In this document: positions 6,421-46,522 of the stretch, piece by piece | How the letters are laid out: every line of letters starts with the position of its first letter | Numbering within the stretch: position 1 is the first letter of the stretch | Assembly: GCA_900404475.1 (NCBI GenBank) | Contig: OUQQ01000176.1 | Location: 4,956-62,310 of the forward strand | DNA from: Spongospora subterranea | Lineage: Eukaryota > Endomyxa > Phytomyxea > Plasmodiophorida > Plasmodiophoridae | Length of the DNA: 57,355 nt | Direction of reading: 5' to 3' | The notes under the pieces: generated by a model | Told to the model about the DNA's origin: nothing | The model's database searches: none | Seen by the model: only the letters and a program-made list of their open reading frames with translations | Program-made: the position numbers and the translations under genes

Positions 6421-7668
6421 TTAATTACTTTGTGGATCTGGCAATGGTGTAGGCGGGGGGTCGTCGGGGCTTTGTGGATCTGCAAATGCTGTAGACGGAG
6501 GGTCGTCCGGGCTCTCTTCATCGTCAGATAAAATTATCAATCCTCTCAACGGAGGATGAGGGTACATAAATTTCTTAGAATAGTCAACCTCGAACCCTAA
6601 ATGTTTGAGGACGCCTACGACTTCCTTTCGCTTCATTATATGTGGTATATGACTGACAGGTCTCACGTTTCGGCTCCTGCTTATGCAGATGATATTTCTC
6701 AGCACTGTCTCCAACCATTCTCGAAATAAATCATAGAGCGCCCCGGCTCCCACACGCCTGTATCCGTACTTTCGCCTGATCAATATTCTATAGAACAATC
6801 GCTCCTTCATGAAATCGGGAATGTCATATGTTTTCGAAGATGGAAGAGGCTGGTGATCGAACTCCACGTCGCTGCATGTAGAATCCGAATCCACAGTTAG
6901 ACGGTCAGAATCGGAATCAAGCCCGTCAACAGTTTCATCATCTTGGTCACTAGAAGCCCCAAAAAATATTGGTGACGGTGGCTCTGGAATAACCATAGCA
7001 TTCAAGGCCTCGATATAGTTGGCAATCTGGATGACATTCAGTGATGGTACTCTAGCAGCAATCAGATCAATATTTCCTCGTCCACAACGTCGTATGGCCC
7101 ATTGCAGTCTGTATTTTTCCTCTATTGTGAGGTCTGGCAGACGGAATATTGGAACATCCTCTTCTGGTAAGTGTTTCAATCGGGTCAAAGCATCATAATC
7201 TTCAAAATATGTTGATGATGCGTACGACATGTCATCTTCCTCTAGTTCGCTTTCCAGGTGTTGCCCTGGTTCGCTTTCCAGGTGTTGCCCTGGTTCGCTT
7301 TCCAGGTGTTGCTTTGGTTCGCTTCCCAGGTCTTGAAGTTGCCCTTGACTGTATTCATCAGAGCCGCACGACAAGGACGAATTTTGGAAAATTTCGAAAT
7401 CCAAATTGGCTGGTTTAAAGCGGAAAAGATCACGGTGAGGATCATCGTCGTCGATCAAATTGATGGGCGAACCTGAATCTAAGCCGCTCCGCATCCTTTT
7501 TATCACATCCACCAGCGGGCTATCCTCTGCCGGACGTTTGCCATGGCGTTCCATATCTTCTGTGACGGCCGCGAACAGGCGACGCCTTTGGGCGCAGGAC
7601 GGCCGTGCGGGAATGTCCCAAACCTGCGTAGCCTTCGACCACGCTGAGGAAACAACAATCAGATCCAC
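6421..7668 (-). CDS. SANT + histone-fold-like acidic protein, possibly Rrn5-like
   Basis: Intronless 415-residue frame. It has an acidic, low-complexity N-terminal third, then a SANT-like helix-turn-helix (LTIEEKYRLQWAIRRCGRGN, residues about 190-235), a second acidic stretch, and a C-terminal helical block (ALYDLFREWLETVLRNI followed by HIMKRKEVVGVLKHLGFEV) that resembles a histone fold. SANT followed by a histone fold is the layout of the fungal RNA polymerase I upstream-activation-factor subunit Rrn5, so a nuclear Pol I initiation role is possible but inferred from layout only. Initiation could instead be at the internal Met of MERHGKRPAED (7554). An imperfect 24-bp (8-residue) repeat, ESEPGQHL-type, is tandem in the acidic part. 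It faces the HFM1 gene across a divergent promoter of about 200 bp. Confidence 0.6.
   Translation of the reverse strand: MDLIVVSSAWSKATQVWDIPARPSCAQRRRLFAAVTEDMERHGKRPAEDSPLVDVIKRMRSGLDSGSPINLIDDDDPHRDLFRFKPANLDFEIFQNSSLSCGSDEYSQGQLQDLGSEPKQHLESEPGQHLESEPGQHLESELEEDDMSYASSTYFEDYDALTRLKHLPEEDVPIFRLPDLTIEEKYRLQWAIRRCGRGNIDLIAARVPSLNVIQIANYIEALNAMVIPEPPSPIFFGASSDQDDETVDGLDSDSDRLTVDSDSTCSDVEFDHQPLPSSKTYDIPDFMKERLFYRILIRRKYGYRRVGAGALYDLFREWLETVLRNIICISRSRNVRPVSHIPHIMKRKEVVGVLKHLGFEVDYSKKFMYPHPPLRGLIILSDDEESPDDPPSTAFADPQSPDDPPPTPLPDPQSN
7240..7337 (-). repeat. imperfect 24-bp tandem repeat inside the SANT/histone-fold gene
   Basis: About four copies of a 24-bp unit keep the reading frame and encode variants of ESEPGQHL. 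The two central copies are identical; the outer ones differ by a few bases. This is a coding minisatellite likely to vary in copy number. Confidence 0.85.
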
Positions 7669-7879
7669 GGTCGATTGTAGAATGACCTCACTGGCCTAGA
7701 GCAACATTCATGTCGAATTACGTTGCATTGATTCCTCCCACATGAACTTCAGGTCACGTGTCGACTGCATTGAGTGGGCATGCATTGCATTACATTGTTA
7801 GACACTCGTTTCGCTTATCCTTACAACATATACATAGGCATTGTAGTAATCATCGTTGCCGTCGATTCAAGAGCATCAT

Positions 7880-10800
7880 ATGGAGGGCAGCTTGGTTCAG
7901 GAATTCTTTGGTGAACAATACGGTACCCCACAACCAAAAAGGCCAAGAATTGACATTTCAGATCATCTCCAGCCAGCGCAGAAGTCATTGCGCTCTTTGA
8001 ATGAATTAGAACTCAATCACAGATCAGTATTTTCTGGTTATAAGACGTTCAATCGTGTCCAGAGTATTGTATTTGAAGATTTATATCACTCAGACAAAAG
8101 CATTGTCGTCGCAGCCCCGACCGCCTCTGGAAAAACCGTATTGTTTGAGCTTGCCATTTTGCGTTTATTTTCCTCCCAGCAGGACAGAAGTAGATTTAAG
8201 GCTGTGTACATTGCGCCATTAAAAGCATTATGCAATGAGAAACTACAATCTTGGCAATCACGTTTCGGCAACCTGGGATTGAAATGCTGTGAATTCACTG
8301 GAGACTCCAACAACGACGTGAATCGCATTGCATCCAATCATATCATGTTGGTCATAAACTTAAATGATAGAATGGTATTTAAGGCGGTTTCATCAGCATT
8401 ACAACTCCAGAAAAACTGGATGCGTCCTCCCGTCGGTGGCAAGAGAACAAGTTCTTCTTTGACAATATCGGGCTTATGATGATCGATGAAGTTCACACTG
8501 TAGGAGAACCTAGGGGTCGGGGTATCTGTCTAGAGGCGCTGATCACCAGGTTAATCACAGCAGTTTTGATAGCTTTCGCTAAAAGGGTATACGTTTTCCC
8601 AGGTGTCTTACCATGGGTATTCGAAAAAAGGAGCAAAACGATAATTGTCCAGCCTCAACTATGCGATTCGTTGCAGTTTCAGCAACCGTGCCAAACGCGG
8701 ACGAACTTGGATCTTGGTTGCAGGCAAAACACTTTCAGTTTGGGGACAACTTTCGCCCAGTTCCCTTACAGTATCATGTTTTCGGTTATCCTATTCGCAA
8801 ACAGCAGTCATATTATCCGTTTGATATGAGCCTAAATTACAAGGTATTTCACAATAAACTGGAATCACAGCTTATGACGCCTTGACCAGGTTTTTGATAT
8901 TATCCGACAATATTCTTCTGGCAGACCTGCTTTAGTATTTTGTTCAAGTAGAGCAGGCTGCTTGAAATGTGCAAAACAGGTTTTGGAAAGCGCAGCAAGT
9001 TCGGGATTCCGGTTTGTCAAAGATCATGAACATGAACAGTCTCTGAAAGTGCACAGCCAGCAACTCAAAGGTACACTGCTCTTCAAAACGCCCTGCACAA
9101 ATTGAGGTGGGTACCCAACAGATGCGTCTCTTCGTGACATTTTCTGTCGTGGTGTAGCGATACATACGGCTGCCTTATCTGCAGAAGATAGACAACTGAT
9201 ACTTGGCAATTTTGTTGCTGGGAGGATTTTGGTGCTCTGCGCAACAACTACATTAGCCCAGGGAGTTAACGTACCAATCTTCATTATTGTTTTGTGATTT
9301 ATGTTTTCGACATTCGACAATTTAGTTGCCGGCTGGTCTAGTGATCGTAAAGGGAACGCAAGTCTACAATAAAAGCCCTAGCGGCTTCACGGAGCATTCG
9401 TCAGCTACGATCTTGCAAATGTTCGTAAATTGATTCAAGATGTGCCGCATGATACTCTTTTACAGGATCGGGCGTGCGGGACGACCCCAGTTTGATGATT
9501 TCGGTGTTGCGATTGTTATGACAACAGCGAACATGGGGACGTTTTATGAAAATCTTTTGAAGGGTCAAAAGCCCATTGAGTCCCACTTGCTTGCTGGGAA
9601 CGCGGCTGAGCATCTTAATGCCGAAATATCCATGCGTACTGAAACAATGTTCATCTTGGTGTCACCTTGAAACTTGTTTACAGGAACAATCAATACTGTC
9701 CACGAAGCAGTGAATTGGATGCAAAACACGTTCGGGTCTGTTCGAATGAAAAAGTGCCCATCACAATTCGGGATTTCAGCTCGAGAAATTGAAGATCCTG
9801 CAGCTTATCAAACCGTCAGTGCAATCAAAGCTTAAGTATCGGAACTAACCCTTCCGGCAAGGTCCTGGAAAACCGAATTCGACATTCTATTGCAACCCTA
9901 GAATCTGCTGGAATGGTTGAAAGTCAGCTACTGGATAGCAGAGTGATTCCCACACGATTAGGCGTCACCATGGTATATGTAGACGAATGAGATAGCAAGT
10001 TCAGTTTCCATATCAAATTTCATAGGCCAAGTTTTACTTAAAAATCCCCACTGCAAGATTGATCGCTGACATTCCTCGAAACATAGACATGTGCGGTCTG
10101 ATTAATATTATCGCGTCGTCCATTGAATTCGTTGATATGCCCATTCGTCAAGGGGAAAAAGCTCGTAAGTCTGTTTAGTGATACTGAGAAACAAATTTAA
10201 CCGATTTTTTACATAGCCCTTAACGCCGCAAATAATAAAGAAACGATTAGGTTCGCATTCAAAGGAAAAGTTAAAACTCTGGTAAACAATAGCACTCTAG
10301 TTGATGGTGCCTCAATGGTTGTCAAGGTGCATAAGATATCCATTCTGCTTTTGTGCGCTCTGCAATCTGCCTCGTCCTCCCCTTTTCAGTTGAATCTCTT
10401 AGATCAAGACCTGAAAAATGCACTAGACATTGCCAAAAGAATTACGGTGACTACTTACTTGCATCAGTTCTCGTTTTTCAACCAGGTTTAGAGGGCAGTT
10501 ACCGAATATCATGGAGCGAGTGATAAGTCGTTTTCCGTTTACTTGAACAGCTTATTACTGTCAGTATTATTTGCTGATGAATAATCTGACTTAAGATTTA
10601 ACCATAGTCATAAAGCTTTTGAGAGGAGGATGTGGCATGACAGTCAATACTCTGTTAGGCAGATTGAGGGAATTGGGATGAAAAAAGCCGCACAATTGAT
10701 AGCTGCAGGGATTACAAGCATCGATAAGCTCAGAGAAATATCATCAGGGAAAATTGAAGCGGTTTGATGTTGTGGTATTCAAATTTTACGGCTATGATAC

Positions 10801-13478: not shown

Positions 13479-13575
13479 CGACTTTTTAAAGGTGATCTTC
13501 CAGTTTGGCCTTTCCAGTGGCATAATTCATATGTTAAGTTATATAAATACGTTTATACAATACTCTGGTCAATGG

Positions 13576-14223
13576 TCAGACCAATCTACCTAAAGATTGC
13601 GCTTTGACTATGTCGTCCATGCAGTCCATTCTCGAGATCTCCCTCTGGAGCTTCTGAACATTTTCCTTCACACGAGATTTGTGATTAGTGATCGCAACTG
13701 TCAAGATATCCCGAAACCGTCACCTCAATATTGACAATTTGGCCGGCAATCATATCAGATCGTTTGGTTAATAGGTCGAGTTTGGTCGGAATAAAATCTT
13801 GAGCTTCATCTAATGTTAGCGCAGGATGAAACCCAAACCCGATGTCGACGAATATTCGAGACGTATCAGGACTAAGAAATCAGTAGGATCACATGAGACC
13901 AGAGACAAAATCGTCGGAGGTTGAACAGATATATCCTACACGAAGGCCTTGACGTAAAATTGACAGCCCAAATCTATCATGGTTTCGAGTTCCTCCAACC
14001 TCTGATCGCGAACCAATGCTAGATACCCCAGCACCTTATGGCTGTACATCAGCATGAAAAACGACGCAAAATACGAAAACCTGGGACCCCACTATTGCTC
14101 AATTTTCTGGTCGACAGCAGACTTGGCTCCATTAAGACGTTTCAGCATGGGGACCAGACTGGTGTCGATGATATTCTGTACGTTGCCTACGGTTTCGCCA
14201 TTGCCAATGTCCACCACGTCCAT
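13576..14223 (-). CDS. UXT: UXT, prefoldin alpha-like subunit
   Basis: Small coiled-coil prefoldin-like protein of the UXT/ART-27 family, in other eukaryotes part of the URI/R2TP-associated prefoldin-like complex. Three introns (14042-14092, 13872-13939, 13666-13723) join four exons to 156 residues, against 157 in human UXT. Diagnostic text: QKIEQYHKVLGYLALVRDQ (N-terminal helix), MIDLGCQFYVKAFVPDTSRI and FVDIGFGFHPALTLDEA (central beta hairpins), then NIEENVQKLQREISRMD (C-terminal helix). The start is ATG 14223 (MDVVDIGN); an in-frame upstream ATG at 14322 would add an unusual N-terminal extension. It converges on the glycosylase gene. Splice joins are mine, but every one restores family conservation. 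Confidence 0.88.
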
Positions 14224-35307: not shown

Positions 35308-38300
35308 ATGATCAATGACGGGATTGATGGTGCATCCTCCAAATCGTTCTCATTGTCCTGCGTCAACTCCTATCTTTATTCATCCCTGCTTATCTTAGCT
35401 GACTGCAATTTTGTGGCCATATCATTGGTCTGTTTTGGAGCGGTTATTGAGTGTTTACAGTTGATTGCCTTTTTATTATCCGACGATGATGCGTTATTTG
35501 CCTGGAATCCACAGCAGACTTCAGACTTGGGATCGATATTGCGCCTAATTGATCACATGATTTTGATTCGATTATTTAGTCTGCCGAACGCCTTTATTAT
35601 CGTTTCCGTAATGGTGGCCCTCTTGTTCTCGAGTTTAGTCATTATCGGATATCAATATGATGTGTACGGTATTGAACCGTCTGCGTTTCGGTTGCGAACT
35701 GTCAGGTCCCTCATATCCCTGTTTTCGTCAATCCTGTATGTTCCCGCATTATCGACACTAATCAAAGAAGCATGCTCGTCGTCGTTTCTGTTAGCTCTGG
35801 TGGCTGGTTGTTTTGCATTCTTTTATACTATCGGAATGATTATCTGTACAGTCGTGTTGCACGATATTCATATACAGTCAAGGTGCGCGTTAGCTCGCGC
35901 CCATTCTAGGTTTGAACTGACATATATATCGTTAAAGACTGTGTTTCCCATTCTATTCCTATGTTTTACGTCATCCCGTGTATTATTAGCATTTCTCGCC
36001 TTCGCATCCTCATCAGCCGTAGCAATTGCGTTCTTACTCTACATTCCTTATTACAATTATCTCATGGTTCATTTACGGTGTAGCCTTTTGTCATTATTAG
36101 TGTGGACTGGATCATCGTGTTTAATTGGCGAGATTATAAATGACCCTCGACATGATGGATCTATTTATATGGTATATGGAGGGGCACCGCTCATAATCAT
36201 ACTAACCAATCTACTTGTCCATATCCGGTTCAGTGTCGTACGAGAAATACCTGATGATAATTTAAATAACCAGTTTATTGCTGAGGCAAAATTTCGGCTT
36301 TTGCTTTTGGACGAACTCGGTGATACAGAACGAAGTCATCTCCAAAACGATAAACTCGTTGATGAGCAAAAATTGATTTGCTTGCGTCTGATTATTGACA
36401 GGAGCACCCAATGTTTTCCTAGAAACGCACTGATGTTAGTGATATCAGCTTTGTTCAATTTCGAGGTATTTTGTATACCCTTCCTCGGTATGTTGTGCTT
36501 TAATGCATTATTCACAAACTAATATGTTCTGTTTCTGTTGTAGCTTATTCAGATCTATCCAATGCCACCAAATGCCATCCGTTACTAGATATTGGGTTTA
36601 TGATCGCCCGCCTTCAGCGTCAATACGCTCAGCGAGTTCTTAAAGCCGCTCACAATCGTGACGTTATCGCCTACAACCGATACGTAGATTTACAATCATC
36701 TGCAACTCAACATGATTTGGATCTGACTCGCTCTCTGCTGTCGTTGTGGCGGGAATTACTTCAAGATGCACCAGACTTTGAAAAGTTGCATTCTGTTGCG
36801 CGTGAAATATCTTCCCAAATGACTGTTGCCAAAGTGGCGTACACTGCGATGATGAACATCTCATCCGAATCGACTTCTGCAGTGACAGCATATGCAGGGT
36901 TTCTGACAGACCTTTTGCACGATGATCTCGCCGCTCGGACATTAAAAGCTCGTGTTAAGGACCTCAATGCATCGAAAATCAGAGACCGGTCTTATCGTAC
37001 ATTACTGTTCAGCGATGATAATGCTGTTATCGTTATCAGTGGCGACATCCTGAATTTAGGCGAGATACTCGCAGTTAACGATGGCGCTCGTGCATTGTTC
37101 GGCGTTGCTATCGTTGGCAAGAATATCAGCGTGATCGTCCCTGAGCCGATCAGCCATCTGCATACCGACATCATGGTCAGGAACCTATCGCGAGGAAAAG
37201 GGACTGTGCTTGATCAGACTAGGAGGTTAATCATTCGTCGACAAACCGGATTCGTCCAGGATGCCGTTGTTTATATTAAGTCATTTGTAGACCATGAGCA
37301 TCTGTCATTCATCGGGATATTGGAGCCGATAGCAGATGAAACGTTCTCGTTCATCATCGTTGCTGACCAGGATTTGCAAATTTGCGCTATCTCTGAATCA
37401 GCATATGATTCTTTGATTGGCGCTGTTATTGGTCATCCGTTAAATGACCTAATGCCCATATCCGATGGGGACTTGACTGATCGCCAAGGGATGGTGTCAT
37501 TATCAGATGGGAGCCAAAGGTTGTATAATATCCAGATCGAAAAAATCAACCTTGATTTGGAGCGGTCGTTATTCGTCATCGTTATTCGTATGGTCCCAGT
37601 ACAGAATTATCAGGCACTCGATGAGTGTCCACTCGAACCTGAAAGCAAATTGATTGACCGATCCAGTTTCCGGAGTGATTTCGGGGCATATAGCAATGCA
37701 CCTTGGCAGAACGTACAAGTGGCTATGGCAAATCGATTGTTCGGTGACCTTGAGGATGATAGTCATGGTGAAGTTGACGAAGAAGCGTCGCTGACAGAGT
37801 CGATGTCAGCAACAGCTCGGGCGGTCAATCATGATGGGGATTATCTCGTCAACATTCATGACAGAATGTCCAAATTCTCAGAAATCTCACTTAATGACGA
37901 CAAACATGACGTTTGTGGCCGCAATATTTCTGTCTCTAGCGCATTCAACGATCACCACGGTCTGACTCACGAGAGAGTGATACTGCTTTGGCTAAACAGA
38001 TCATCGATCATCTTGTTAGTTATCGTCTCGATCACAATATTATCTGGTTTCGTATTCAGATCCAACTTCATTGATCGCAATATTCAGATATCGGACCGGA
38101 TATCGTCATCATCATCACGGTCTACTGATCTGATTAGCCTTTCTCTGGCAGCATATGATTTACAGCTCATGGCAACTGGGTATAAAGCATCCACTGATGT
38201 GAAAGCTGTACGGCAACGAATCAGCGCGTTCACCGACCAGTTAGAGTTCAAGGTCGACACAGAACTGCGACGGATGGGTTCGTGGTCTTCGCCCTTAGCG

Positions 38301-41017
38301 CAACTCAATTATGATCCAGTTTCAATGCTGTCTAACCAAACATTAACTGATTCACTGATGATGTCTGTGGCCTACTCTCGAGACCTTCAAAACATGTCGC
38401 TCTTGAGTATATCTGCAAATCCGCAAGTTGTTTCTTCTCTGATACAAATGATGACAACTGTTTCTGAGCGTTTATTCGATATATCTGGGCCAATGACTGC
38501 CCAATCAAATGAATTATCTTCCCTTTTTTCTACACTCAAGCTTTTTGTTCCTTATGTCTCTTGCATTTGCCTATTGATTCTTACGCTGTTTGCTCTGCGA
38601 CCGTCACTAATTGGTTCTCTCAATGGCAAGGATCAAGTGTTTATGAAACTATTTACGATATCGCGGGCTTGTTTGTTATCGATTATTCAGCCGTGCCTGA
38701 TACGACTGAGTTTATTTACTGCAAAAGGGGATCTAGTGATGGCGTCGCCCAACGAGCATGCCTTCGCAACGGACGACATATCCCCACACACCGCTGAAGC
38801 TAGAGGTCACCACTCTAGTCGTACAGCTGTCATGGAACATCGAAGGCACCCTCTGCATTGGCAAGGAACGCTATCCAGCAAAACGAACCGCAACAAGGTT
38901 AGAAGATATCAGCAACTAGGTCAGGGAGTTCTGATTATGGTTGGGGTGTATTCTGGAATCGTCGCTATGGCGCTGATTATGACTGATGACATATTAAGCC
39001 CCGCGTATTGGTTCCCAAATGAAATGAATTGGACTCGATATGAGGTTTGCCCAGCGCTCTGACTAATCGCCAAATGCCCTATTTTTATTCGTTTATTAGG
39101 AATATCTCATTCGACGGTCAGTGCTGACGCTTCAGCAAGTAGTGGTCAACGAAACAATGATAGCAACTCCTCAAATGCTGCTCAACCTGATTAACCAAAC
39201 TTCTGAGCATATGAACTATCTGATGTATGGGAATACTGGCCTAGGCCTTCCCACAAAACTGATGACGGAATCGAGCCAATATTTTCAATTACAATTTACA
39301 TCAACGTAGGATAGAAATTTTTGAGGCTACGCTGTTCTCTTTAGCATGCGACTAATCTCGCCTCTGAATAGTTGTAAACTGGAATCCATGAGATTGGTTA
39401 CGGATTGTCAAACATTCCGATCCGGAGTGGCGAATAACGGATTGCATGCTATTTTGATGGATCTTCTGTCTCTGGAACGGCAGGTATTAACTATATTCAC
39501 ATCTGGTTCGATGCGCGCCTCCGAAATTCTCGTGTCTCAACCATTCCGTGATTCAATTCGCCTTGAATGGGAGTTCCTTCGACCTGCCGTTCTGGAATTG
39601 GTGGATATTGTTGAGTCGGATATCGCATCAACATTTAATCTCGCTAATATTCTTGACATAGTATTCACCGTTGTTTTTCTATCGATTAACGTTGCAATGT
39701 ATATGATCTTGGTCAAACCCGTCTTGACTGCAGTCGCCAGGGAATTTGCTGAGGCGCGGGACCTATTTCATACAATACCTGCGCGAGCGTTCTTGGCGAC
39801 ATCATACAATGCCTCCGTCGGCAGCCATCACGGTAGCGATGATGATGACAATCCCAGTGAAAGCTCCGAATTCGACGATCGGGACACGCACGCTGCTGCT
39901 GTACACCAGGCTAATCGAAAACGTCGTCTACTTCGCATTCGTCGTCAGCGGCGTCTGCCGTTCCATCGTGTTTATGGATGTTTTCGGAAATATCGCGCAT
40001 TTGCTTGCATCGCATCAATACTGGTTGTGTTAATAATATGGCTGCAGTTCTGGCCATATGCAGCTGATTACGCCACAGCCGATGGTTATTCATCGCTTTT
40101 AATCAGTATCGGATCCTTTTTCTCTGGTGTCACCCCAGTCGACCCAGGCATTCTTTCGTGTTTTTTAGCCAATGTGGATTCGATCGTTTTTCGAAACACT
40201 ATCCTAGTCGTGCAAACTGTTGCAGCATTGTCTGCGTCTTTATTCATCATTTTGTCAGGACGATGTGTTGACTGGACAGTTTGCAACTACAGCACCGTAG
40301 GTGGAATGTTTGGTACTGCATTAGGATTATGGTTGTTTCCTAAATCGCTCGTTGACAATGAGGTCATTGCCGTGATCTCAGCCGCAATGATGTTAGGTTT
40401 TGCCAGCTCCATTGCTCTTACTCGTTTAATGTTGAGTTTTACTCGATCCGTTGAGCCGATTACCTCCGACTTGCGGTGTCGCTTCGATATCGTTGTTTTT
40501 GGTTTTTGTGGCGGTTTGATATCGTCAGTAAATGGGACCGGAACTGGGACGTTCGTTTTTGGCATGATCACTCTCTTCTTCACGTTAGAACCCCAAATTG
40601 TACTCTCGACGTCCATCCTTGTATGAATGATTGGCTTCTTCATACTTTGGTCCTAACTTCTTTGAATGTGTGCAGGTATCTGCTCTCAACGGCCTTGTTG
40701 TCATCGCTTGCCATTTCATCTACAATCTACAATTAGAGGCGACTATGCTAACCACGACATCAATGATGCCGTCGATAGTGTTAATGTCCATTGGAGCTAC
40801 TCTTCCTTATAATTTCGCCACGTTCTTTACTTTAGCTTTGTTGAAATTTATCGGTGTTATATTAATAACCTGGGATGGTTACTATGCGTGTTTCTTTGTT
40901 GGGGCTGCATTTCTTGCAGCTTGGACCGCTACCGGTTTTGCAATTGGCGTCGCGGGGATTATCCAATTCTCCAGTAATAGCGAATATGCTAAGCAAGATC
41001 AAGATCCAGGCGAATAA
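35308..41017 (+). CDS. TmcB/TmcC-like PAS membrane protein fused to TauE/SafE permease
   Basis: Five exons (35308-36487, 36544-39044, 39100-39305, 39345-40620, 40676-41017) sum to 5,505 nt, 1,834 residues. Residues 1-370 are multi-helix membrane and match the N-terminal module of TmcB/TmcC-like proteins of protists and zoosporic fungi (VIECLQLIAFLL...WNPQ). Then a cytosolic helical linker, a PAS domain (about 545-660: EILAVNDGARALFG, GKNISVIVPEPISHLH) and a second PAS-like domain (about 660-760). TM helices follow near 877-898, 1058-1080, 1188-1207 and 1396-1420, ending with the family's VAREFAEARDLFHTIP. A His/Asp-rich loop leads into a TauE/SafE-type permease (about 1518-1834) with two half-repeats: SIGSFFSGVTPVDPG and GGLISSVNGTGTGTFVFG. 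The fusion lies within one continuous exon. Substrate unknown; TauE/SafE proteins export sulfite or organosulfur anions. Confidence 0.85.
36488..36543 (+). other. intron 1 of the TmcB-TauE fusion gene
   Basis: GTATGT donor, CTAAT branch 25 bases before the TAG acceptor, 56 bp, phase 1. It joins IPFL to AYSDLSNATKCHPLLD. A good example of the intron type used throughout the window. Confidence 0.8.
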
Positions 41018-41087: not shown

Positions 41088-42248
41088 TTACTTGCGCTGT
41101 AAGATACTGGCGCCATATTCCTCGAATTCGGCTTTTGAAATCCAGAACTCATCCCTTTCCTTCATAATATCGGCTAAAACAGATCCACCCAGAAACACCA
41201 TGTGTTTGCGACGAGGAGGGTCCTCGATTCGTAATTTGAATTTTGACAATCGGGATTCGTCCCCTCCGAGGACGTCGTTCAGATACCGAGTTTTGATCTC
41301 CTTCTCCAAACGTGTCGGTAGACCAGGATACATGGTTGACCCGCCAGACAGTACGATGTGCTTGTAGAAGTCTTGCCTGAGATCGATGTCGGCAGCGTTG
41401 ATCGTATCGAAGAGCATATCTGCGATACCGGGACTCTCGACATCGATCAGGGAAGGTCGGAAGAGCACCTCAGGTGCTTGATACCTTTCTTGGCCCAGGG
41501 TTATGACACGTCCATCTGGCAGCTCATAAGTCTGCACTAATGAAGTTGTTTCTAGCGCTAGTTTTTTTTCGACTTCTAGATCGTATCCAACAAAGCAGCA
41601 TGCCTCCTTGATTTGTCTGACCGTTTCGAAATCCGCCGAGCGATTGAGATTGTATCCGCGCAACTGCAGTAGTTTGATCAGGTACCGGGTCATATGTCGT
41701 CCAGCGACATCCAGACGGCGTATTAGGTTGGCAGGACAGACGCCATCGTATACAGGGACGATATGTGTGACACCGTCACCGGAATCAACGACAACACCGG
41801 TCAACAGCCCTTGGGCATAGAGCACCAACACTGCTTGGATCGAGACTTTGGTTGCGGCGAACCCATACGATTCGAACATGTACTGAAGGAACAGTTCCCG
41901 ATTGGCTTTGGGATTAAGAGGGGGCTCAGTTAGCATGATCTTGTGATTGGACGGATCAATCTGTAGTCGCTCGTAGAATGTGTAATCCCATACGTGCTGC
42001 ATATCTTCCCAATTCCTCACTATTCCATTCTCCACCGGATAGGTGCATTCAAGCATGTGGCGAAGCGCTGCGGCTTCGTCCCCACACATGATGTCCTTGA
42101 TCTCGTTGGTCGATACGGATTCCTCATATCGCAACAGCGGTCGCCCAACCATCGACGGAAACACGACCTTCGGGAAATTGGATCCGGCGAACCCCGCCTT
42201 GACAAACCCGGTCCCATTATCGCAAACAACAGGTGTCGATAGCGCCAT
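41088..42248 (-). CDS. ARP2: ARP2, actin-related protein 2
   Basis: Subunit of the seven-protein Arp2/3 complex that nucleates branched actin. The frame is intronless, 386 residues, the normal length. Actin-fold nucleotide-binding text is intact: [19 protein letters not shown] (phosphate loop 1), [15 protein letters not shown] (phosphate loop 2), [19 protein letters not shown] (adenosine motif). ARP2-specific wording includes [47 protein letters not shown]. It lacks introns while its neighbours are full of them. Convergent with the TmcB-TauE gene (70 bp apart). Confidence 0.96.
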
Positions 42249-42423
42249 GGCGGTGACGGTGTGATGAAGTTAAGAGAGAGAAAGTGGGAAACATAACTTT
42301 TAACTCGGGGCCTGTCCTCATGTAGATACACTATCACTGTATATTCGCACTGGACTCGCCGATCTCTATCGTTTTCGTTGTCGCCAACGGGGGCCGTGAA
42401 AGATAGAGATTTCGACGTCTGGC

Positions 42424-43885: not shown

Positions 43886-45253
43886 TCAATACCGATATCT
43901 GTGTCGAAACGGGCGTGGACCTTGGTGCTGAGCTCTGAATATGAACGCCGATTTCCAGTCGGAAACGGGCTGGTTATCATACCCATGACGCTTTCGATAA
44001 AGATCCTGCGATTGTCGAGTTAGTGGCGGGTTCCGTAGTGAAATCGAGCGGAGAGCAAACGAGAGTACCTTCCACAGAATCGGATGGGCGCCGATCTGGC
44101 CGAGATACGGGTTGACACAGCGAATATTGGATAGATCCTTGTACGAAAGGAACGAGAGGCACATCAGCAACAGAGGCGGCGATAGATAGAGGCTGTCGGC
44201 ATCCATCACCGGTTTCCACAACACCTTGCAGATAGAATTCGTTATTGTCAAAATGAGCCCTGAAAGCACATGAACGTTCTCGGTTGTCGCACGATTCAAT
44301 CGTGTACCTGGTAGGTTTTTGAGCTGGAGATGATCGCTGGCTGTGTATGATCGGATCGACAGCTTGACGGTCGACTTGCGAATTTCCAGACATAGGTCCG
44401 ACGACGATCTCGTCGATTCGGCAGTGACGATGATCTTATCGGCGGATGGAAACGGGAGACACATCAGCAGAATATCCTCGACGTTGGTCCGCGGATTCTG
44501 CTCCCCAACCGAATACCCGAACCGGAACAGATTCCCGTTGGACGCCCAATGCGCCGGCAGCGCCACCGGTGAATCACATGGCGTATCGGCGTTGTTGGCC
44601 CATAACAACCTCAGGCCATTGTTGACCATAATGCAGTGAATCCCTGCACAAACCAACTGAATCGGGTCTTGGCAGTTCGGGCGAAGTTCGTCCAGCGTCC
44701 GCTGTAGAGCGAGCGCGTCGCCTGTGAGCGCGACCAGACGATTCCAGCGATCGCGCACCGGCGCTATGATCCCGCTGCCGACCAGGTCGCGCAGGTGGTC
44801 GGTGCCGAGAAGGCGAGTGGCGGCCACCAGACAGACATCGACATGGCGATACGGGAACTGCAGTGTGAATATGTTTCGATCCGACGCAATCCGGGCATGG
44901 GCGATGATCGTGAGATTCACGCTGATGATGTGCAGGTCGAACGTGAATTCGGGGCGATCGGATCGATAACGGAACGAGTGCTGGGCGACGGAAGCACCAG
45001 CTGGGAGGCGAAACGATTCCGCCAGATATTCTGTGGGCAATGGCGTCATAAACATGCTGGGCATGCGATGGCGCAAAATGGACAGTTCAAGCACACCCTG
45101 ATTATCGAATTCGGTGCAGACGAACCCGGATTGCAGCAGGATCTGGTGGATTAGCCAGGTGACCAGCTCGAACGGATTGCTCAACGACGCGATCACGTTC
45201 TCGGAACCAAACAGGCGCGTCAGCAAACGACTGTCGTCTGTTGGGCTGTTCAT
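43886..45253 (-). CDS. F-box protein, FBXO7-like (PI31-type N domain)
   Basis: 441-residue frame (from the Met at 45274; I favour the downstream MNSPTDD at 45253, which avoids overlap with the divergent gene). A 63-bp intron (44006-44068, GTACTC...CGCAG with CACTAAC) separates the F-box from its tail. N-terminal half (SNPFELVTWLIHQILLQSG...) resembles the FP/PI31 proteasome-regulator domain; the F-box is SPPLLLMCLSFLSYKDLSNI then RCVNPYLGQIGAHPILWK, continued after the intron as DLYRKRHGYDNQPVSDWKSAF, as in FBXO7 (SCF substrate adaptor). The F-box is clear, the FBXO7 orthology likely but not proven. Confidence 0.72.
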   Translation of the reverse strand: MNSPTDDSRLLTRLFGSENVIASLSNPFELVTWLIHQILLQSGFVCTEFDNQGVLELSILRHRMPSMFMTPLPTEYLAESFRLPAGASVAQHSFRYRSDRPEFTFDLHIISVNLTIIAHARIASDRNIFTLQFPYRHVDVCLVAATRLLGTDHLRDLVGSGIIAPVRDRWNRLVALTGDALALQRTLDELRPNCQDPIQLVCAGIHCIMVNNGLRLLWANNADTPCDSPVALPAHWASNGNLFRFGYSVGEQNPRTNVEDILLMCLPFPSADKIIVTAESTRSSSDLCLEIRKSTVKLSIRSYTASDHLQLKNLPGTRLNRATTENVHVLSGLILTITNSICKVLWKPVMDADSLYLSPPLLLMCLSFLSYKDLSNIRCVNPYLGQIGAHPILWKVLSFALRSISLRNPPLTRQSQDLYRKRHGYDNQPVSDWKSAFIFRAQHQGPRPFRHRYRY

Positions 45254-45261
45254 CGCTGACG

Positions 45262-45622
45262 ATGGCGCCATCAAATGACCCTTTAGTGTTCACACGAACC
45301 ACGGAATATTTCCCGCCGAATCAATTGAACGCCCGTGGCCACATTCTGTTCGGGAATGGCCTGTGGTCAAAGATCATGGAACCAAATGCGAAATTCATCG
45401 GCTCCTGCGAGAAAGTCACATTGAACGCTGATCGAAAGGGTGAATGACAAAACGACTGTCATAAAGCGTGCTGTTTTATCAAAAGGAACATGTATTCGAG
45501 CATTTCTTGAGAAAACTCCATCTGAGGTTGGCCAATTCACCACATCAGCGCCGATCCCCCCGTCAAACAATCTGGGAGGGCGAATGTATTTCATTCAGAG
45601 AGTGTATTTCACTCAGAAATAA
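45262..45622 (+). CDS. unidentified protein, 3' part disrupted by duplication
   Basis: Exon 45262-45439 (MAPSNDPLVFTRTTEYFPPN...ADRKG) and, after a 46-bp intron (45440-45485), exon from 45486 (TCIRAFLEKTPSEVGQF) read well. After 45590 the frame runs into a stop at 45622, but a nearly identical segment (45637-45716) with two extra Cs in the C run continues openly as WEGEISPEYVDSN...APTVINNT and VVEIRFDRIMFDNKVVDRINK into the region before the N at 46095. Either the gene is broken by a short tandem duplication or the assembly is wrong here. Family unknown. Its ATG lies 8-12 bp from that of the F-box gene on the other strand. Confidence 0.5.
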
Positions 45623-45716
45623 GTCCAGAATATGTTGACCAATTCACCCCATCAGCGCCGATCCCCCCCCGTCAAACAATCTGGGAGGGCGAAATAAGTC
45701 CAGAATATGTTGACTC
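45537..45716. repeat. short tandem duplication around a C run
   Basis: The segment AATTCACC...AATCTGGGAGGGCGAA occurs at 45532-45584 and again at 45640-45692. The C run is 6 long in the first copy and 8 in the second, and TAAGTCCAGAATATGTTGAC also repeats. Confidence 0.8.
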
Positions 45717-45819
45717 GAACACTCCCTTTGCCCCAACTGTCATCAATAATACGATGGGCCCCGCGTCCATCTCGATCACGCTAATCACCCGCCAAAAACG
45801 ATCAACCGGCGATAGCGTC

Positions 45820-46375
45820 GTTGAAATTCGATTCGACCGCATTATGTTCGACAATAAAGTTGTCGACAGAATCAATAAAGTACGATTGTGTATGTTGTCA
45901 ATCATTGCGACCGCCCGGTCCCGTTTTTCTCAGACAGGTCGTCAGCGCCCCCGCCAACCCGTACCGTACTGGCCCGCGCGCGTCCCCGTCCCTGAGACAA
46001 CAAGCGCCGTCTCTCCGAGATGCCGTCCCTTTGGCGACAACAACCCCTGTCATCGTCACGACGAGTCCGGCCGGAGTTTCCCTAACACCCATTGNGTTGA
46101 AATTCGATTCGACCGCATTATGTTCGACAATAAAGTTGTCGACAGAATCAATAAAGTACGATTGTGTATGTTGTCAATCATTGCGACCGCCCGGTCCCGT
46201 TTTTCTCAGACAGGTCGTCAGCGCCCCCGCCCCGCCAACCCGTACCGTACTGGCCCGCGCGCGTCCCCGTCCCTGAGACAACAAGCGCCGTCTCTCCGAG
46301 ATGCCGTCCCTTTGGCGACAACAACCCCTGTCATCGTCACGACGAGTCCGGCCGGAGTTTCCCTAACACCCATTG
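45820..46375. repeat. 275/280-bp duplicate flanking a single N
   Basis: 45820-46094 and 46096-46375 are the same sequence except for a 5-bp insertion in a CCCCG stretch of the second. The N at 46095 marks an assembly join. Confidence 0.85.
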
Positions 46376-46522
46376 GCCGATTCGATGACAATGATCTGAG
46401 ATGATGTCGTTCGACACCGTCTGTTAGAACAGCACAGCTCGGTTCCGAACCCAGTCGGTAGAAAACGTCTGGACACGGGCCAGCTGCCGCCGCCGCCGCC
46501 GCGAACCTGGCCCCATTCGACG

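Follow-up and report, generated by a model that had tools for sequence, protein, structure and literature searches.

A Tmc-type sensor fused to a TauE/SafE permease in Spongospora subterranea: a candidate haem-PAS sensor-transporter

Introduction

TmcB-like proteins (Tmc stands for 'tiny macrocysts') are a little-studied family of eukaryotic membrane proteins for which we know of no ligand. Here we describe a gene of Spongospora subterranea that joins such a protein to a TauE/SafE permease domain, and that, judging from its sequence, most likely encodes a gas- or redox-sensing sensor-transporter in one piece. The gene lies on a 57,355-nucleotide (nt) stretch of DNA (the window; positions 4956-62310 of contig C309) in an assembly of 679 contigs totalling 20.59 Mb. 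Related genes are named below after the contigs that carry them.

Two kinds of described protein are relevant here. For bacterial CbrA, modulation of the sensor kinase by the SLC5 transporter domain fused to it has been proposed (PMC8871633). Among haem-binding PAS sensors, DosP uses H77 as its proximal haem ligand; N84 and R97 (positions +7 and +20 from this histidine) belong to a network of hydrogen bonds that includes the haem propionates, and the oxygen bound by FixL is likewise stabilised by an Arg (PMC4263535). Across the FixL/DosP cluster the F-alpha His is given as the primary determinant of haem binding (PMC10468136).

Results

A sequence-only reading of this DNA had proposed a one-polypeptide fusion of a TmcB-like sensor and a TauE/SafE permease, with the Tmc tail and the start of the permease in one exon. 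Both proposals stand. The Tmc-type tail (AREFAEARDLFHTIPARAF) and the TauE start lie within exon 4, so the join between the two halves needs no splice. The fusion is strongly backed by a diverged second copy on C123, where TPR_TmcB (9093-9479) and TauE (13495-14103) both match on the same strand. In a spliced alignment, the corrected window protein (see below) is colinear with C123 over residues 3-1750, with 421 of 1670 residues identical (25.2%) and a score of 633 against 45-62 in 12 shuffles; the intron set of C123 in this alignment (14 introns) is approximate. The Tmc C-terminal region is conserved as a whole in C123 (score 223, maximum of 68 in 300 shuffles) and so is the TauE part (182, maximum of 71 in 300 shuffles), and the TauE frame of C123 is open to C123:14250. 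Because C123 repeats the same joined order in a very different copy, we conclude that the fusion of a Tmc sensor with TauE in a single gene is real.

Rebuilt from the DNA, the gene has five exons, introns that are all GT-AG, and one open frame over 35308-41017. The exons of this first model (35308-36487, 36544-39044, 39100-39305, 39345-40620 and 40676-41017) encode 1834 residues plus a stop, in keeping with the 1,835 codons counted earlier. An open frame is not enough to place the junctions: of the models built from GT-AG pairs around the four introns, with limits set on length, 72 stay open. Intron 3 most likely spans 39306-39371 (66 nt) rather than 39306-39344 (39 nt). Branch-point-like CTRAY sites occur in introns 1, 2 and 4, and there is none in the 39-nt intron 3. 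The 66-nt form has a branch-point-like CTAAT at 39352, 15 nt ahead of its AG, and it is only with this form that a nine-residue insertion relative to the C123 gene vanishes (local score 85 versus 70). On the grounds of the CTAAT site and the loss of the insertion we moved the end of intron 3 to 39371, which gives a protein of 1825 residues. Exon 4 as originally read, 39345-40620, thus keeps its end and has its start corrected to 39372.

The features of the corrected gene, in window coordinates, are as follows.

35308..36487, + strand: exon 1, N-terminal membrane region with several helices, about residues 1-393 (open frame, GT-AG, hydropathy)
36544..39044, + strand: exon 2, with TPR_TmcB, PAS1, a PAS2-like stretch, an acidic linker and transmembrane (TM)-outside-TM module 1
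36639..36974, + strand: TPR_TmcB domain (PF25474), residues 426-537 (Pfam)
36996..37328, + strand: PAS1, closest to the FixL/DosP haem type, about residues 545-655 (PDB sequence searches)
37161..37223, + strand: putative haem-ligand His600 (37161), with Arg606 (+6), Asn607 (+7) and Arg620 (+20)
37335..37598, + strand: PAS2-like stretch, about residues 658-745 (assigned by eye)
38001..38597, + strand: TM-outside-TM module 1, residues 880-1078 (topology inferred from hydropathy peaks)
39100..39305, + strand: exon 3, part of TM-outside-TM module 2 (gene model)
39306..39371, + strand: intron 3, corrected (CTAAT at 39352; comparison with C123)
39372..40620, + strand: exon 4, corrected start, with the end of module 2, the Tmc tail, a charged linker and most of TauE
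39736..39996, + strand: Tmc tail motif (from residue 1418) and charged linker, near the end point of both non-fused Tmc genes
39997..41017, + strand: TauE/SafE domain and leading helix, residues 1505-1825 plus stop (Pfam; spans the intron 40621-40675)
40621..40675, + strand: intron 4, within the TauE domain
40676..41017, + strand: exon 5, final TauE helices and stop (gene model)

Exon 1 shows nine hydropathy peaks up to residue 393, and its region is colinear both with C123 and (from residue 46 on) with C341, a Tmc gene without TauE. Exon 2 lies within an uninterrupted open frame of 852 residues. The TPR_TmcB domain, at 53.8 bits against a Pfam cut-off of 27 (59.7 bits in the search of the genome itself), places the window protein in PF25474 above the curated threshold. 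The order of helices, TPR, PAS, TM modules and tail matches that of the other Tmc genes, as compared within this genome, and 179 of the 628 residues aligned with C341 are identical. The Pfam search found no output domain (kinase or cyclase) in the Tmc part.

The sensor had been described as a 'double PAS' protein. The first PAS is borne out by PAS_9 and by FixL matches in the PDB; the second has no profile match. PAS_9 (residues 564-623) reaches 19 bits in the window protein alone, below the Pfam cut-off of 27; over the window, C123 and C341, Pfam finds PAS_9 in three of three (best expectation value, E, 1.6e-5) and PF00989 in two of three. We built a profile from these same three proteins (A1; its C341 row stops short of the C-terminal end of that protein) and compared it with PDB sequences: all 13 distinct matches at E<=1 are FixL or DosP (the latter also entered as YddU or haem PAS sensor), the best at 4e-8. 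The individual domains behave similarly. FixL/DosP accounts for all 10 matches of window PAS1 at E<=10 (best 1.8e-4), for 13 of the 14 matches of the C341 domain (best 6.6e-7), and for the first 13 of the 20 matches of the C123 domain (E up to 0.011), the 7 others following from E 0.046. The NCBIfam models for FixL and DosP match all three domains, as does the generic PAS S-box model; for window PAS1 the E values are 0.0036 (S-box), 0.0069 (FixL) and 0.01 (DosP). Four further models match the C123 domain from E 0.027.

The residues of the haem pocket are conserved as well. At the FixL haem-ligand column the window, C123 and C341 proteins all have His, followed by Arg+6, Asn+7, Gly+11, Arg+20 and Gly+29. 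His600 of the window protein aligns with the DosP His and with chain position 73 of RmFixL, which we take to be the haem ligand H194 (in a numbering that presumably makes the arginines R200 and R214). RmFixL has His, Arg+6, Tyr+7, Gly+11 and Arg+20, and DosP has His, His+6, Asn+7, Gly+11, Arg+20 and Gly+29, so that the complete set of His, Arg+6, Asn+7 and Arg+20 is found in neither. PAS1 is thus closest, by these searches, to the FixL/DosP haem type, which defines the sensing half more closely than the sequence-only reading did. FixL-like haem PAS proteins reportedly exist in the alga Chlamydomonas, though our literature search did not turn them up.

TPR_TmcB lies above its cut-off at five places in the genome: the two fused genes (C309 and C123), two non-fused genes (C341 and C251), and one on C231. 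The non-fused genes end about where the fused genes continue, without TauE. C341 stops at L015:7063 after RTRSLLLLIPSDVVSSMSSIRDYVRRQQEKTK (its end is RTRSLLLLIPSDVV...KTK, then stop), and C251 stops after MRKLLHNFTD (its end is LLNELLLHESCIGKMRKLLHNFTD, then stop). A tblastn search with the window TauE part over the DNA available downstream of these two stops found no TauE (best E 2.1). The C231 match (28.6 bits, cut-off 27) falls in a 726-residue frame that looks nucleoporin-like by eye, and its spliced alignments scored 35 to 50, close to what shuffled sequences give; we judge it spurious, which is a judgement and not a proof.

The TauE/SafE half was identified by its Pfam profile (PF01925), which matches residues 1581-1764 of the 1834-residue version over profile positions 39-213 of 237. 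The match falls within the residues claimed for it earlier (1518-1834), at the cut-off. Against a curated threshold of 32.6 bits, the full 1834-residue protein scores 32.5, longer and shorter C-terminal pieces score 32.8 and 34.3, and exon 4 alone scores 29.9 (30.7 in the genome search). The C-terminal parts of the window and C123 proteins both match TauE (two of two, best E 9.1e-9). Searching the genome gave four TauE matches on three contigs (C309, C123 and C652), none above the cut-off exon by exon.

The gene on C652 (L006 5042-6637, spread over several frames) looks like a free TauE/SafE gene, with both glycine loops (SGGGVGGGGVFIP and GGLLGIGGGMVLAP), and can serve as a natural control for the two fused genes. 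Compared by eye among the window, C652 and C123, the second half-repeat loop, NG.G.G, is kept in both fused copies (GGLISSVNGTGTG in the window). The window loops lie at 40111 and 40510. Two PDB matches were set aside as noise: 8kei_D, a cytochrome b-245 chaperone, to a two-gene C-terminal profile of the window and C123 (A2; E 0.041), and gp120 of human immunodeficiency virus to a 94-residue piece of the free TauE gene (E 6.3).

Searches for relatives outside this genome found none among 7992 candidates scored with the full protein, and none among the 7994 scored with each of profiles A1 and A2. Pattern matches in viral_contigs (91 with A1 and 84 with A2) and in genome_contigs (26 with A1) yielded no confirmed relative. 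Because two of the collections are described as viral or prokaryotic, the lack of relatives in them says little about rarity. Among the papers listed by our literature searches, only some of which were aimed at such a fusion, none describes a fusion of Tmc or a haem PAS with TauE.

Three further regions of the window have neighbouring genes or frames. Arp2 (actin-related protein 2; best PDB match Arp2, E 1.5e-175) occupies 41091-42269 on the - strand in a single frame, convergent with the fusion gene; this neighbour and the spliced genes indicate eukaryotic DNA. At 43889-45289, - strand, a frame matches the N-terminal domain of the proteasome regulator PI31 (43.2 bits). Frames of 424 and 292 residues at 6424-7695 (-) and 45526-46401 (+) have no Pfam match at E 0.001.

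Discussion

How might such a protein work? We tentatively propose, at somewhat short of even odds, that this 1825-residue membrane protein couples its TmcB-like sensor to its C-terminal TauE/SafE domain, such that switching of a haem PAS alters TauE transport. That the PAS could gate the permease was also suggested in the sequence-only reading. PAS1 would bind haem through His600. Its conformation would shift upon binding of oxygen (or nitric oxide or carbon monoxide) to the haem, or with a change of redox state. From PAS1 this change would travel along the remaining Tmc part, with its membrane modules and its tail motif, to TauE, where the transport of a small anion, perhaps a sulfur-containing one, would be altered. 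Three of the four Tmc genes have the FixL-type pocket, which makes haem, and then oxygen, nitric oxide or carbon monoxide, a candidate ligand; the fusion to TauE makes anion transport a candidate output. If this proved true, the direct coupling of a haem gas sensor and a transporter domain within a single eukaryotic protein would link oxygen supply to ion or sulfur traffic in a new way.

A more specific form of the proposal is a family of two genes in this genome whose FixL-type haem PAS responds to oxygen, or to some other haem ligand, and acts directly on the activity of the permease joined to it; we rate this form as rather unlikely. The haem-sensor idea itself may extend to TmcB-like proteins in general, because the pocket residues are also present in the non-fused C341.

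Several observations weigh against haem-gated transport. On the sensing side, the Tmc gene that has diverged most, C251, lacks the Arg residues and has a His close by. The F-alpha His is present in 60% of the FixL/DosP cluster and missing in 40%, and the eukaryotic PASK PAS domain adjoins this cluster while human PASK is without the haem residue (PMC10468136). On the transport side, the TauE scores are at the cut-off, and below it exon by exon; no NCBIfam family matches exon 4 at E<=1; and the first loop, which is of GGG type in the free C652 gene, is replaced in the fused copies by SGVTPVDPGILS (the window) and SSLTPFGFGVIS. With this first glycine loop altered, transport by the fused TauE copies is not assured, and it may have been lost or changed. 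Single-sequence AlphaFold models were unusable for both the PAS region (220 residues, predicted local distance difference test score, pLDDT, 38.9) and exon 4 (425 residues, pLDDT 42.7). Finally, a tree of the four sensor cores pairs C123 with C251 (84% bootstrap) and leaves the fused genes ungrouped, although four sequences are too few to decide.

The history of the fusion bears on this last point. The replaced first loop has the same pattern in both fused TauE domains (S.[VL]TP...G[IV]), and because they share this change, a fusion that arose once and was then duplicated into two diverged copies is the simplest fit. Loss from C341, or two fusions, are possible alternative histories; since the tree leaves the fused genes ungrouped, it does not separate one fusion with loss from two fusions.

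The direction of control could also be the reverse of what we propose. TauE would then be a substrate-binding receptor, or 'transceptor', feeding an anion signal to the Tmc part, which would hold the output. This is unlikely taken by itself, yet nearly as likely as haem-gated transport. The loss of the glycine-rich first loop from both fused copies, and its retention in the free C652 gene, would suit a receptor, and the role proposed for the SLC5 domain of CbrA (PMC8871633) is a precedent for a transporter domain that modulates a sensor. The second loop (NGxGxG) is kept, however, the frame is open to the domain end in both fused copies, and the Tmc part has no kinase or cyclase domain, in the Pfam search, through which a signal could leave.

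Less probable again is a fusion that serves merely for co-localisation or dosage, with PAS1 a haem-free dimerisation domain and no allosteric gating. Non-haem use would be common in the FixL/DosP cluster, given the proportion of its members without the haem His (PMC10468136); against this stands the conservation of the pocket His, Asn and Arg in the window, C123 and C341 genes, whose sensor cores are about 32% identical.

A wrong join of neighbouring Tmc and TauE genes, by splice guess or assembly error, is very improbable and already largely refuted: the joined model was read from DNA alone, and reading through from exon 3 meets a TAG and then an ATG at 39346, but that ATG falls within the corrected intron 3, and the shared exon 4 and the same order on C123 speak against separate genes or an assembly join.

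Haem-gated transport by a fused TauE domain remains our preferred proposal, and it can be set beside four known systems. TmcB-like proteins (PF25474) share the TPR_TmcB domain, the N-terminal helices, the PAS and the TM modules with the window gene; the window gene and C123 run on into TauE, unlike the non-fused members C341 and C251, which end at the Tmc tail. FixL and EcDosP are alike in PAS sequence, in the ligand His and in Arg+20, with Arg+6 as in RmFixL and Asn+7 as in DosP. They differ in that the window gene encodes a eukaryotic membrane protein, in which we found no kinase or phosphodiesterase and for which haem binding is a prediction. TauE/SafE permeases (PF01925), such as the free C652 gene, resemble the window protein over most of the profile and in the second half-repeat loop; in the window protein the domain is fused C-terminal to a sensor and its first glycine loop is replaced. 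CbrA (SLC5-STAC-PAS-histidine kinase) is the closest known device in kind, with a transporter domain and a PAS in one polypeptide. It differs in that its transporter belongs to another family, the order is reversed and the output is a histidine kinase. Sensor-transporter fusion is thus a known kind of device, and the combination of a Tmc-type, putatively haem-binding PAS sensor with TauE appears to be a new pairing.

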